Under the pieces are notes generated by a model. The model did not search any database, had not been told where the DNA came from, and was given only the letters and a program-made list of their open reading frames with translations. Positions 4,246-7,690 of a DNA stretch of 64,000 nucleotides are shown here, piece after piece. A program made the position numbers and the translations under genes. Location of the stretch: NCBI GenBank assembly GCA_015075305.1, contig JABTUS010000006.1, positions 310,001 to 374,000 on the forward strand. The letters run 5' to 3'. Positions within the stretch are counted from its first letter, which is position 1; every line of letters starts with the position of its first letter. The stretch comes from Opitutaceae bacterium. GTDB lineage: Bacteria > Verrucomicrobiota > Verrucomicrobiia > Opitutales > Opitutaceae.

Positions 4246-5439
4246 ATGAACGGCATGAAAACCACCCTGCAACCGGCCACGCTGTGCGCGCGGGCCGGCT
4301 CGGAATCACACCGGTCCGGTGCCAATGAGCCGGTACAGCCGCCGATCGTGCAGAGCGCGATCTTCGACCTGGGTGGCACGGAGGATGCGGAGGCCATTTT
4401 TTCCGGGGCGCGAAAGGGGTACGCCTATTCGCGGTTTGGAAACCCCACTGTCGACACGCTGGCAGGCGTCCTCGCGGGATTGGAGGGCGGGGCGGAGGCG
4501 CTGGTGACCAGTTCAGGGAACGCCGCGGCGCTCTGTGCGGTGACGATGGCGATGCACGGGCGGAGCGGCCCGGTGCTGACGCCGCCCGACATTTATGGGG
4601 GAAGCTTTGAGCTGCTGCGCATTCTGGGATCGGCCTACCGCCTTCCCCTGGAGACGGCGGATCCCTCCGATTCGTCCGCGTGGCTCGCGGCTGTCGCGCG
4701 GGCGGGCGTGGTGCTGCTGGAGACCCCGTCGAATCCTGTGATGCGGCTGATCGACCTCGCGGAGACGATAACGCGCGCGCGCCAGGCCGGGGTGCCGGTG
4801 ATCGTGGACAACACGGTGGCGACGCCGCTGGGTCAGCGTCCGCTGGAGATGGGCGCGGACTGGGTGATTCATTCAACCACCAAGTATCTCAACGGGCACG
4901 GCGACCTGATGGGCGGATGCGTTGTTGGCCGCGAGCCGATGACGCGGATGCATCGCTCCATTCACAAGAACCTGGGAGGAACCGTGAATGCCTTCGAAGC
5001 CTGGCTGACCCTGCGCGGGTTGCGGACCTTTGCGCTGCGCATGGAGAGGCATGAGGCGAACGCCCGTGCAATCGCTGAATGGCTGTCGGGGCGGCCGGAG
5101 ATTGCGGCGGTGCACTATCCGGGACTGGCTTCGCATCCCCAGGCATCGTTGTTCCGGCGGCAGATGAGGTCAGCGGGGGGATTGCTTTCGTTTGAATTTT
5201 CGGGTGGCGAGGCGGCGGCGGCCCGATTCATCAACGGTCTCAAACTCGTGATTCATGCTGTGAGCCTTGGAGGACCGGAGACCCTGGTGACGGTCCCGGC
5301 CCGGTCGAGTCATCGCGGCATGACGCCCGAGGCGCGGCGGAGCGGAGGTATCAGCGACGGACTGGTTCGTCTCTCCGCCGGGTTGGAGTCCATCGATGAC
5401 TTGCTGGAAGACATGAGTCGGGCTATTGTCGGCCGCTGA
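4246..5439 (+). CDS. Cys/Met metabolism PLP-dependent enzyme (cystathionine gamma-synthase / beta-lyase / methionine gamma-lyase family)
   Basis: The 397-residue protein is a fold-type I PLP enzyme of the trans-sulfuration family. Visible hallmarks are YSRFGNPT (phosphate and substrate loop, residues 61-68), LVTSSGNAAA (cofactor phosphate loop), D188 in the VDNT motif, and the Schiff-base lysine K213 in STTKYLNGHGD. The C-terminal domain ends with an RLSAGLE motif. Which reaction it runs (synthesis of cystathionine, its cleavage, or methionine gamma-elimination) cannot be settled from sequence alone. A second in-frame ATG lies at 4255. It is divergent from marR and leads a three-gene run with overlapping ends. 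Confidence 0.88.
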   Translation: MNGMKTTLQPATLCARAGSESHRSGANEPVQPPIVQSAIFDLGGTEDAEAIFSGARKGYAYSRFGNPTVDTLAGVLAGLEGGAEALVTSSGNAAALCAVTMAMHGRSGPVLTPPDIYGGSFELLRILGSAYRLPLETADPSDSSAWLAAVARAGVVLLETPSNPVMRLIDLAETITRARQAGVPVIVDNTVATPLGQRPLEMGADWVIHSTTKYLNGHGDLMGGCVVGREPMTRMHRSIHKNLGGTVNAFEAWLTLRGLRTFALRMERHEANARAIAEWLSGRPEIAAVHYPGLASHPQASLFRRQMRSAGGLLSFEFSGGEAAAARFINGLKLVIHAVSLGGPETLVTVPARSSHRGMTPEARRSGGISDGLVRLSAGLESIDDLLEDMSRAIVGR

Positions 5440-5443
5440 CGTC

Positions 5444-5677
5444 ATGAACGCTCTGGATTCAAGCCAATCCCGCCAGTGGCTGCCGCCGCTGCGTCCGCCT
5501 GCGAGGAATGAGGCGGTGGCGTGCGAGCGCTGCGGTGCCTTTGGCACCTATGCGTGGGATGGGATGACGCTTTGTCTGGATTGTTATGCCGCCCAGTGTT
5601 CGTGCTGCAACGAGTTTGAAGATCGCGTCAGCGTCCCGATGGTGCAGAGTGCGCCGTCAAAATCGTCCCATTCATGA
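5444..5677 (+). CDS. Small cysteine-rich (zinc-ribbon-like) protein
   Basis: The 77-residue protein has two Cys groups: CERC at about residues 27-30 and CLDC followed by CSCC at about 47-56, with a conserved-looking YAWDGMTLC between them. That pattern suggests a structural zinc site. The ATG at 5444 lies four bases after the upstream stop, and the stop overlaps the next ATG (ATGA), so all three genes should be translated together. I do not recognise a family and assign no function. Confidence 0.65.
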   Translation: MNALDSSQSRQWLPPLRPPARNEAVACERCGAFGTYAWDGMTLCLDCYAAQCSCCNEFEDRVSVPMVQSAPSKSSHS

Positions 5678-6351
5678 AACCCGTTCTCCATCAGGTTCCC
5701 TACAGCCCGTATTGCATTGCCATAGCAGAGACTCTCAATGCTGCGGGGGTATCCTTTCGCTCGGTGGAGGCACCGCTTCACCGTCGCGAGTCGCTGATCC
5801 GCATCACCGGTGGGAGGTACTATCAGGTACCGACGCTGGTGCACGGGAAGAAGCTTGTGTTTGACGAGTCGCCGGACGGGCTTGATGTGGCCCGTTACAT
5901 CGACAGGGAATTCTGGGGCGGGGGATTGTTTCCGTCTGAGCATGAAGGGATGCAGAGAATCCTCATTCCTCACATTGAGAACGACATTGAGGCGGTGACC
6001 TTTCGTCTGACCGACCCGCTGCGCATACCCAAGATCAAGGATCTCATTGAGCGCACCGAGGCGATACGATTCAAGGAGCGCCGTTTTGGCCGCGGGTGTC
6101 TTGACGCCTGGCGAAAGGAGGCGCCGGCCTTGAAGAAGCAGGCCTATGCGCTTTTCGAGCCCTTCGACCTCATGTTCCGTGGATCACCCTTCATTTTTGG
6201 AATGCGCCCCGTCTATTCCGATTTTGCACTGTCCGGAATCATTGGCGCCTTGACATTTGACGGGCATGTCGCGTTGCCGAAGGGCTTGAAATCCATTGAG
6301 CGCTGGAGGCGGGATTTGAAGCGCTGGCAGCTATGCCGGGCGGTGATTTGA
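5674..6351 (+). CDS. Glutathione S-transferase-like protein
   Basis: The 225-residue protein begins with a thioredoxin-fold GST N-domain: PYSPYCIAIAETLNAAGV as first strand, active-site turn and helix 1, then the YYQVPTLVHGKK cis-proline segment and FDESPDGLDVARYI as the gamma-glutamyl contact region. The C-terminal half is helical, consistent with a GST C-domain. A single Cys sits at the active-site turn (SPYC). Its start overlaps the Cys-rich mini-protein stop. Substrate is unknown; linkage to a sulfur-amino-acid enzyme hints at thiol chemistry. Confidence 0.75.
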   Translation: MKPVLHQVPYSPYCIAIAETLNAAGVSFRSVEAPLHRRESLIRITGGRYYQVPTLVHGKKLVFDESPDGLDVARYIDREFWGGGLFPSEHEGMQRILIPHIENDIEAVTFRLTDPLRIPKIKDLIERTEAIRFKERRFGRGCLDAWRKEAPALKKQAYALFEPFDLMFRGSPFIFGMRPVYSDFALSGIIGALTFDGHVALPKGLKSIERWRRDLKRWQLCRAVI

Positions 6352-6520
6352 AGGGATGACGTACGGCGAGTCTCCGTCCATCTGAACGAATCAGTTGCGG
6401 ACGGCATGTGGCGGAATTCGCCATGCCAAACGAATGGGGGGAATGCAGGCAAAGATGGAGGGGGAATGCATGCAAGGACGGAGGGGCGAACGGGAAACAA
6501 TTTGACCCTTCCACCATCAT

Positions 6521-6548
6521 GGAGGGGCACGCTTTGTCGTGCCCTGGG
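6521..6548 (+). repeat. Hairpin repeat element, copy 1
   Basis: A perfect 7-bp stem GGGCACG / CGTGCCC surrounds a CTTTGT loop, with GGA and TGGGG flanks. It is matched by an inverted copy at 6659-6686 that differs mainly by a C to T and a G to A change on opposite sides of the stem, which keeps the pairing intact. Confidence 0.7.
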
Positions 6549-6658
6549 GACGGTCGGGGAGAAACGGCGTCGGAAGGTCTCACGCGGAGACGCGGAGAAG
6601 AGGGAGTGGGATGTAGGTTTATGAGAAAACTGGCCGGCGTCTTGGCGCGAACCGCGAA

Positions 6659-6686
6659 CCCTGGGCATGACAAAGCATGCCCCTCC
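6659..6686 (-). repeat. Hairpin repeat element, copy 2 (inverted relative to copy 1)
   Basis: Read on the minus strand this has the stem GGGCATG / CATGCCC with the same CTTTGT loop as copy 1. The sixth stem pair is T-A here and C-G in copy 1, a compensatory change. Together with copy 1 it brackets about 110 bases. Confidence 0.7.
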
Positions 6687-6781
6687 AACGGAGGGGGAAT
6701 GCATGCAAGGATGGAGGAGAGAGGGTGCAGGCAAAGATGGAGGGTGCAGGCAACAACGGGGGGGCGTTGCACCGGCGCGGG

Positions 6782-7465
6782 TTAGCGTGAAATGGTGCTT
6801 GGAATTGCGGCCATTACGCGAGCGGTCATGGGATCGCAATGGGCGGCGGAGTAGTCGAAGAGCTCCATTCCCGCCGTCGTTTTCAGAAGCTGCTCCTTGA
6901 GTCCCTCCTTCGCGCGATGAAGGGAGACTTTGACATTGGCAGGTGTTATTCCGAGGCAGGCGGACGTCTCGGCGGTGGAAAGACGCTGGACTTCGCGAAG
7001 TACATAGACGGCGCGGTGGGAACGCGGAAGTTTCCGGATGGCTTGTTCGAGAAGAGCTTTCATTTCTGCCAGGTTGAGGGATTCGGAGGCGGAAGGTTCG
7101 GGCGATTCCTGTTTCTCAAGACCTGCGCACTCCGGGGACGGCTCGGCCTTGAAGCGCCTTTCCCTGCGGATGAGCATGAGGCACTCGTTGATCATGATGC
7201 GCGTGAGCCAGGTCGAGAAGGCGGCGGAGCCTTTGAAGCGATTCAAGTTCCTGAACGCCTTTATGTAGGCATTCTGCATGGCATCCTCGACCTGCGTGTG
7301 ATTGTGCAGGTAGGCCATGCCGACCCTGTAGAGCTGTGGATTGTAGCGTCGGACGATGATGCGAAACATCCCGTTGTCTCCACGGAGGACACCGTTTACG
7401 GCGGCAAGATCGGGGATGTCCGGATGGTACTCCAGGGATTCGGCATTTTGGGCGGCAGCTGGCAT
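6782..7465 (-). CDS. ECF-family RNA polymerase sigma factor
   Basis: The 227-residue product has the two sigma-70 regions of ECF factors. Region 2 contains HNHTQVEDAMQNAYIKAFRN and the FSTWLTRIMINECLMLIRR stretch; region 4 contains LPRSHRAVYVLREVQRLS and a helix-turn-helix ending ITPANVKVSLHRAKEGL. I prefer the ATG at 7465 over a GTG at 7489. About 25 extra residues follow region 4 with one Cys and one His. No anti-sigma gene is adjacent; the divergent neighbour is a DoxX-like membrane protein, which may be in its regulon. Confidence 0.9.
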   Translation of the reverse strand: MPAAAQNAESLEYHPDIPDLAAVNGVLRGDNGMFRIIVRRYNPQLYRVGMAYLHNHTQVEDAMQNAYIKAFRNLNRFKGSAAFSTWLTRIMINECLMLIRRERRFKAEPSPECAGLEKQESPEPSASESLNLAEMKALLEQAIRKLPRSHRAVYVLREVQRLSTAETSACLGITPANVKVSLHRAKEGLKEQLLKTTAGMELFDYSAAHCDPMTARVMAAIPSTISR

Positions 7466-7690
7466 GGTTCGGATTGGATGCAATCGCACGTGAGATGGTT
7501 ACAGCATTTCACGAATCCGGCTGATACCTTTGACACCGCGAATCGCAGTTCTGGGGCGCTGTGCAGTCGAAGGATGGGCAAGCGGTGAAGGCGGCATGCA
7601 TGGCTTCGATGTAACCGGCGCGCAGCATTTGGCATCGAATGTACAGGACAGCCATAACGGCACCATCCACTCAACCATCAAAATCAAATC

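Follow-up and report, generated by a model that had tools for sequence, protein, structure and literature searches.

The window, which is the whole 64,000-nucleotide stretch of DNA analyzed here, contains two convergent genes, one encoding a protein with a glutathione S-transferase (GST) N-terminal domain (PF13417; positions 5674-6351, plus strand) and the other an ECF-type RNA polymerase sigma factor (6782-7489, minus strand), and the interval between them holds a 168-nt element composed of two REP-like hairpins arranged head to head (6520-6687, plus strand) with a GGAG tag on the outer side of each. Similar A-to-B dimers are found elsewhere in the genome. End A (6520-6544, plus strand), which was aligned with 58 other arms, comprises the tag TGGAG and the hairpin GGGCACG-CTTTGT-CGTGCCC (6525-6544, plus strand). 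End B (6663-6687, minus strand), read on the minus strand, comprises the same tag and the hairpin GGGCATG-CTTTGT-CATGCCC, whose plus-strand letters are GGGCATG-ACAAAG-CATGCCC (6663-6682). Between the ends lie the body of arm A (TGGGGACG...CGTCGG; 6545-6576, plus strand), which is alike in many copies, a spacer module, CTCACGCGGAGACGCGGAG (6579-6597, plus strand), which is present in 61 copies in the window's own genome and in none in that of the sister G082, and the body of arm B (AGGGTTCG...ACGCCGG in the minus-strand reading; 6628-6662, minus strand), both bodies being recognized from the alignment of arms. The inverted arms (6520-6548 and 6659-6687) are 29 nt long, 90% complementary, and separated by 110 nt, which bears out the description in an earlier note of two inverted hairpin copies around about 110 bases. 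On the left, minisatellite units of about 23 nt (6434-6489, plus strand) contain one copy (6457-6484) of a 28-base direct repeat; on the right, a ACGGAGGGG-like extension of end B and further minisatellite units (6688-6767, plus strand) contain the other (6690-6717), which differs by one mismatch.

A degenerate hairpin pattern allowing up to three mismatches matched twice in the window, where 0.23 matches were expected, and none of 100 shuffles reached two; the single-strand fold of the element was better than those of 200 of 200 shuffled sequences (z -6.5 as RNA and -5.6 as DNA). In both the RNA and the DNA fold, arm A is predicted to pair with arm B, not each arm with itself as its own hairpin. 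A further sequence, CCCCTCCGTTGGAGGGG (window 6680-6696), shares bases with end B and could fold into a competing hairpin, to the exclusion of the REP hairpin. Covariance models of Rfam gave no match over the gathering score at the five loci searched (L001, L002, L003, L061, and L063).

The hairpin is highly repeated in its own genome (G000). The exact stem-loop, with the swap of one pair allowed, occurs at 49 places (25 forward and 24 reverse), a wider hairpin pattern gives 170 matches, and the wider pattern with up to two mismatches gives 246 hairpins; the reversed-pattern control of the exact search and the control of the mismatched search each gave 0. When the element and its surroundings (351 bases) served as a DNA query, 135 matches were returned with E values up to 1, the query locus among them. 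The wider pattern was found in five of 200 genomes of the taxonomic family, all from the genus of the window, and in none of 190 genomes outside that genus. The tag GGAG was written into the wider patterns that yielded the counts of 170, 246, and 5/200, but not into the exact stem-loop pattern that yielded 49. Within the genus, five of 10 genomes carry the hairpin, in 170, 96, 81, 73, and 4 copies, the four-copy genome being 78% complete; G082 has 96 hairpins, and G123 and G105 have none. Plasmids and viral contigs gave no match to the hairpin, and a scan of named genomes, from which records very near the own genome may be omitted, gave one record, a Verrucomicrobiota metagenome-assembled genome (MAG). 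The hairpin is thus neither confined to one locus nor absent from related strains, and the proposal in the earlier note that it belongs to a REP-type or small mobile repeat is supported by the high copy number, the mostly intergenic location, and the matched changes in the stem. In the literature covered, with subscription-journal papers mostly outside its scope, no description of a GGAG hairpin family was found.

For a closer view we analyzed 189 hairpins, which form 91 groups and are spread over 11 of the 17 contigs, taken from stretches fetched around the matches and around Y1 genes; 179 of them fit the 246-place pattern, and 67 of those 246 places lie outside the set. Single hairpins make up 37 of the 91 groups, and 64 distinct 25-mers occur among the 189. 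Head-to-head pairs 100-260 nt apart number 31, and their extent from tag to tag is 138-231 nt. Outside a cluster at C1:299-362 kb, neighbors less than 300 nt apart are arranged as +- (tags outside) in 19 cases, -+ (tags inside) in 21, ++ in seven, and -- in three, and the head-to-head dimer is therefore not the sole arrangement because -+ is as common as +-. The -+ neighbors there, separated by 11-100 nt, resemble places where one element abuts the next, and PMC3733652 reports tail-to-tail pairs for REPs as well. The cluster itself holds 68 of the 189 hairpins, in arrays or singly. When hairpins were grouped at 330 nt, 12 of the 13 cluster arrays with both orientations had all + hairpins before all - hairpins, an order that none of 20000 permutations matched (best 8), and grouping at 300 nt gave 10 of 11, again matched by 0 of 20000 (best 7); the exception to the nested order is the array ++-+-+-. 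Because insertion of a dimer into a dimer results in all + before all -, the hairpin order in this roughly 60-kb cluster looks like that of elements inserted into each other. Two other repeated structures were seen by eye: a stretch of about 346 nt with one hairpin, present twice in tandem at G000:C1:500000-500900 (L096), and recurrent composites of about 600 nt at G000:C3:203000-211100 (L104 and L105), with hairpins at their bounds and other repeats (TTGAGCCCTGAAGGGGCG) inside.

The tag at the hairpin foot is GGAG in 154 of the 189 hairpins, any NNAG in 174, and GT[AG]G in one, in a set of which nearly all members were fetched because they match the search pattern. Stem pair 6 is C-G in 143 hairpins, T-A in 39, T-G in four, and otherwise composed in three, and pair 5 is A-T in 179 and G-T in 10. 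Pair 3 is broken, G facing A, in 113. In an alignment (A1) of 59 arms, hand-picked from the 104 listed, 93.5% of the cells of the seven-pair stem are paired; pair 6 is C-G in 36 arms, T-A in 21, T-G in one, and unpaired in one, and 24 arms have pair 3 unpaired. Both the count of cells changed on two sides and the covariation score exceeded those of 500 of 500 shuffles, with two-sided changes restricted to one of the seven pairs and with the pair count and the pair-type count at the shuffle level. The covariation score of 0.159 was nearly equaled (0.146) when the partner was slid by -3 columns, and RNAalifold recovered six of the seven pairs, pair 3 being the missing one. Reading the 96 places of the sister G082 by eye, we found three with G-C at pair 5 on both sides and one with T-A at pair 6 and a different loop, and such readings suggest that matched changes occur beyond pair 6 of the own genome. 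The stem is for the most part preserved. The alignment cells are not independent events because copies inherit their hairpin state. The claim that covariation here marks selected structure consequently stands in a weaker form: the two matched changes are real, but they concern one pair of seven, their states are inherited by sub-families, and pair 3 is broken in the majority of copies.

The distribution of the two states of pair 6 further changes the meaning of the swap. Among 18 isolated head-to-head dimers, 15 combine a C-G with a T-A hairpin, two have C-G at both ends, and one is half changed, in a sample that was partly fetched by likeness to the window element and so favors that form. Since this pair of states recurs in most isolated dimers, the swap from C-G to T-A is not a change made at the window locus; it distinguishes the two ends in the isolated form of the element but not in all forms. 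The idea of two fixed ends for the whole family was dropped because T-A hairpins, which occupy 39 of the 121 places outside the cluster, occupy none of the 68 inside, where 13 of 13 head-to-head dimers carry two C-G hairpins. Heterodimers are described as frequent in published REP families (PMC3733652). A matched pair change between neighboring hairpins, then, need not mean compensatory evolution at the locus, as the states are paired in most isolated copies.

The direct repeat that brackets the hairpins at the window locus was present as first described, with its single mismatch, but the outer bracket that it forms is part of a degenerate minisatellite: five degenerate copies start at 6434, 6457, 6690, 6716, and 6735, and the 28-base repeat, the pair of units that match best, is for that reason best regarded as a small minisatellite. 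Of 42 T-type hairpins, 19 have the ACGGAGGGG-like extension immediately on their outer side and 10 have a minisatellite unit no more than 90 nt outward; among the 147 others the numbers are four and one. A target-site duplication was accordingly ruled out as the origin of the 28-base repeat, which is one of five degenerate copies and goes with T-type hairpins. More generally, identical flanks of 3-10 nt were found in 0 of the 18 isolated dimers, as they were in shuffled flanks, and 2-nt identity occurred in three against 1.2 expected. The lack of a visible target duplication fits Y1-class enzymes better than DDE enzymes. Elements of the IS200/IS605 family insert without target duplication.

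For two copies with neighbors of good gene score, the corresponding places were compared in three sister genomes, of which G082 offered no usable match for either copy. Between conserved flanks at C7:226790, the own genome has 285 nt where G169 has 46 nt, and 330 nt where G055 has 97 nt; at C7:33102, the own gap of 562 nt corresponds to 214 nt in G169, and one of 570 nt to 90 nt in G055. None of the four shorter gaps contains a hairpin in alignments read by eye, with flank identity of 74-86%. Gain in the own lineage is the simpler reading at both loci, although loss in the sister genomes could also account for the difference. For the window locus, a GST orthologue was found in three of nine relatives, with no hairpin beside it and a different following gene, so that the comparison gave no clean empty site. 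The interior of the element is less constant than its ends. With up to one mismatch, the spacer module TTCACGCGGAGRCGCGGAG occurs 61 times in the own genome, 11 in G169, five in G123, three in G055, two in G105, and none in G082, and it was ruled out as an essential part because it is missing from G082 with its 96 hairpins and present in the hairpin-free G123 and G105. Two dimers of G082 enclose unrelated spacers between the same hairpins, and the hairpins are therefore the conserved part. One contig of G055 has arms, an end B extension, and a minisatellite resembling those of the own genome.

Gene context was derived with a simple codon-usage gene caller, by which 55 of the 91 groups could be classified: 29 lie between co-directional, 20 between convergent, and six between divergent genes, the numbers outside the cluster being 16, 18, and six. 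In the remainder, 28 groups have no called neighbor on one or both sides, and eight of the 91 overlap a called gene. The location between convergent genes had been noted as fitting REP sequences, and it does, as the GST and sigma factor genes are convergent and the family shares the bias toward convergent or co-directional gaps that PMC3733652 gives for REPs in general. Only two of the 189 hairpins have at least four T in the 8 nt after the stem, and a terminator scan found one against 0.8 expected, which is the chance level.

A REP-associated tyrosine transposase (RAYT) gene, whose search had been suggested together with the REP interpretation, did not emerge as a partner. The own genome has five Y1_Tnp places over the cut-off and a sixth below it at C5:227170, and the hairpin is at the ends of none of the five. 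The Y1 domain on C8 has a hairpin at a distance of 1.3 kb, and that on C11 has one at 4.3 kb; the remaining three were each fetched with 10-12 kb of surrounding sequence, in which no hairpin occurs. Three own Y1 genes (G000:C8:44384, C11:90406, and C2:110390) lie between inverted repeats of their own, 18-34 nt long and about 1 kb apart, and these terminal repeats (such as AAAGGGTCAGTCCTTACT) are by eye unlike the GGAG hairpin. The C8 protein scored 58.4 bits with the REP-associated tyrosine transposase model, below the cut-off of 80. When 27 Y1 loci in the genus (26 of relatives and L064, a set in which some Y1 matches of the relatives are not represented) were scanned, one (L152 of G055) had hairpins with up to three mismatches in its flanks, beyond what appears to be its own terminal repeat, and L153 had a single six-mismatch match; by a rough estimate from copy numbers, one flanked locus is about what chance would give. 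High-scoring IS200-like Y1 genes (69-86 bits; G000:C12:72489, G055:C128, G082:C62, and G169:C75) are present in the four genomes of the genus that are rich in hairpins and absent from the other six. Three of them are full, with a diverged identity of 38-49%, and the own one at C12 is a short frame of 126 aa; other palindromes lie beside two, none was found beside the other two, and the GGAG hairpin flanks none. A RAYT partner among these Y1 candidates was therefore rejected, given the own inverted repeats of three and the divergence of the IS200-like ones that lack flanking hairpins. At G000:C2:41025-41255 (L068), a Y1 domain lies inside a much longer frame (799 aa) with repeat-like peptide stretches nearby. 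Genes for PDDEXK_3 (GxxExxY) nucleases were also seen amid hairpins at G000:C1:336647-336997 (L063, about 4600-5013) and G082:C45:8832-9176 (L184). One of the two own PDDEXK_3 genes and the one of G082 are within 1.5 kb of hairpins, and no hairpin lies within that distance of the four matches of G055, the three of G105, and the one of G123. A CGCGGAG module lies within 1.5 kb of four other PDDEXK_3 loci in the genus (L183, L186, L188, and L189).

The explanation we consider probable is that the repeat is a REPIN-like (REP-doublet) miniature element moved in trans by a transposase that is probably of the Y1 (HUH) class. Each hairpin would serve as a single-strand recognition site, at whose GGAG tag a trans-acting enzyme, most probably a Y1 (HUH) transposase of the IS200/RAYT kind, would cut; the two-ended unit would be taken out as single-stranded DNA and would insert without target duplication. 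The inverted pairs, the restriction of the high-copy hairpin to one genus in the genomes searched, its absence from two loci in sister species, the lack of a visible target duplication, and the nested arrays are as observed; the chemistry of cutting, the class of enzyme, and its action in trans are inferred, and the element may or may not still be moving. Against this explanation stand the failure to find a cognate transposase, a tag that is not GT[AG]G, the frequent break of pair 3, the groups that are single hairpins, and the nested order, which could come from recombination instead of insertion.

The strongest alternative, to which we give somewhat less than an even chance, is that the family is a relic whose transposase has since been lost, so that the hairpins no longer move but decay and are reshuffled through recombination and slippage. 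It overlaps the Y1-driven element and differs from it in whether movement continues, so that belief in the one does not exclude belief in the other. The lack of a linked transposase, the 37 groups of single hairpins, the many distinct 25-mers, and the shortness of the 126-aa frame at C12 are all as a relic would have them, but the species-specific presence at two loci and the different spacers in the sister suggest spread after the species split. An unlikely reading, though a wider departure, is that GGAG marks a third tagged REP superfamily beside GTAG and CGTC in Verrucomicrobiota, whose dimers insert into each other without a classical RAYT by way of an unrecognized enzyme, for which the PDDEXK_3 (GxxExxY) nuclease would be one candidate. 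Similarly improbable is recombination alone, in which palindrome-driven template switching during replication would multiply the hairpins without a transposase and could also produce matched changes on both sides of the stem. The palindromic order of the arrays, the minisatellite beside end B, and the differing spacers agree with it, but local slippage does not explain hairpins on 11 of 17 contigs, nor unlinked loci with clean flanks. A non-autonomous miniature inverted-repeat element (MITE) of a DDE-type insertion sequence, with terminal repeats that are palindromic by chance, would account for the inverted arms, the spacer with no recognized gene, and the sister sites lacking the element; we think it very unlikely because target duplication is missing from all 18 dimers, each end is itself a hairpin, and no larger element with these ends was noticed in an unsystematic look for DDE transposases. 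Equally hard to credit is a terminator or mRNA stabilizer kept by selection at transcript ends, for which the convergent and co-directional groups speak, since T-runs are rare, the terminator scan finds no more than chance would give, sister species have the same genes without the element between them at the two C7 loci, and the gene-order bias is reported for REPs at large (PMC3733652).

The Y1-driven, REPIN-like element that we favor places the family near several known systems. It shares with the GTAG REPs and REPINs that accompany RAYTs in Pseudomonas, Escherichia, and Opitutus terrae, as treated in PMC3733652 and PMC3686654, a short hairpin whose foot bears a four-base tag, a high copy number, head-to-head dimers with tags outside that are often heterodimers, tail-to-tail pairs, and a preference for convergent and co-directional gaps. 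It differs from them as portrayed there in its GGAG tag, the lack of a hairpin-flanked RAYT, the wide pair (138-231 nt in 31 dimers), and a spacer bearing another repeat, and because the tag is of another kind and no linked gene was found when looked for, the family cannot be assigned to the RAYT-linked GTAG class. The Y1 transposases with unrelated terminal inverted repeats, called TIRYT elements in PMC3733652, resemble the three own Y1 genes whose repeats differ by eye from the GGAG hairpin. Ends of IS200/IS605 likewise have a hairpin, whose foot is preceded on the 5' side by a tetranucleotide guide (PMC6006769); here, in contrast, no transposase gene lies between the ends, and both ends are inverted copies of one hairpin. 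The CGTC-tagged REPs, a published case without a linked RAYT (PMC3733652), also form head-to-head dimers without a dedicated transposase gene, but their stem is 8-9 and their loop 4-5 nt versus 7 and 6 nt here, and their CGTC adjoins the stem, whereas here it lies 4 nt off in 66 of 189 copies and is absent in the G082 dimers inspected, so that the GGAG hairpin was not assigned to that class. REP elements are known from many bacteria, and the GGAG family is a fairly ordinary repeat family save that the expected moving enzyme was not found attached to it. It bears on how REP families without a linked RAYT originate and persist, as an instance that combines a non-canonical tag, element-free sister loci, and arrays in which one insertion after another may be recorded.
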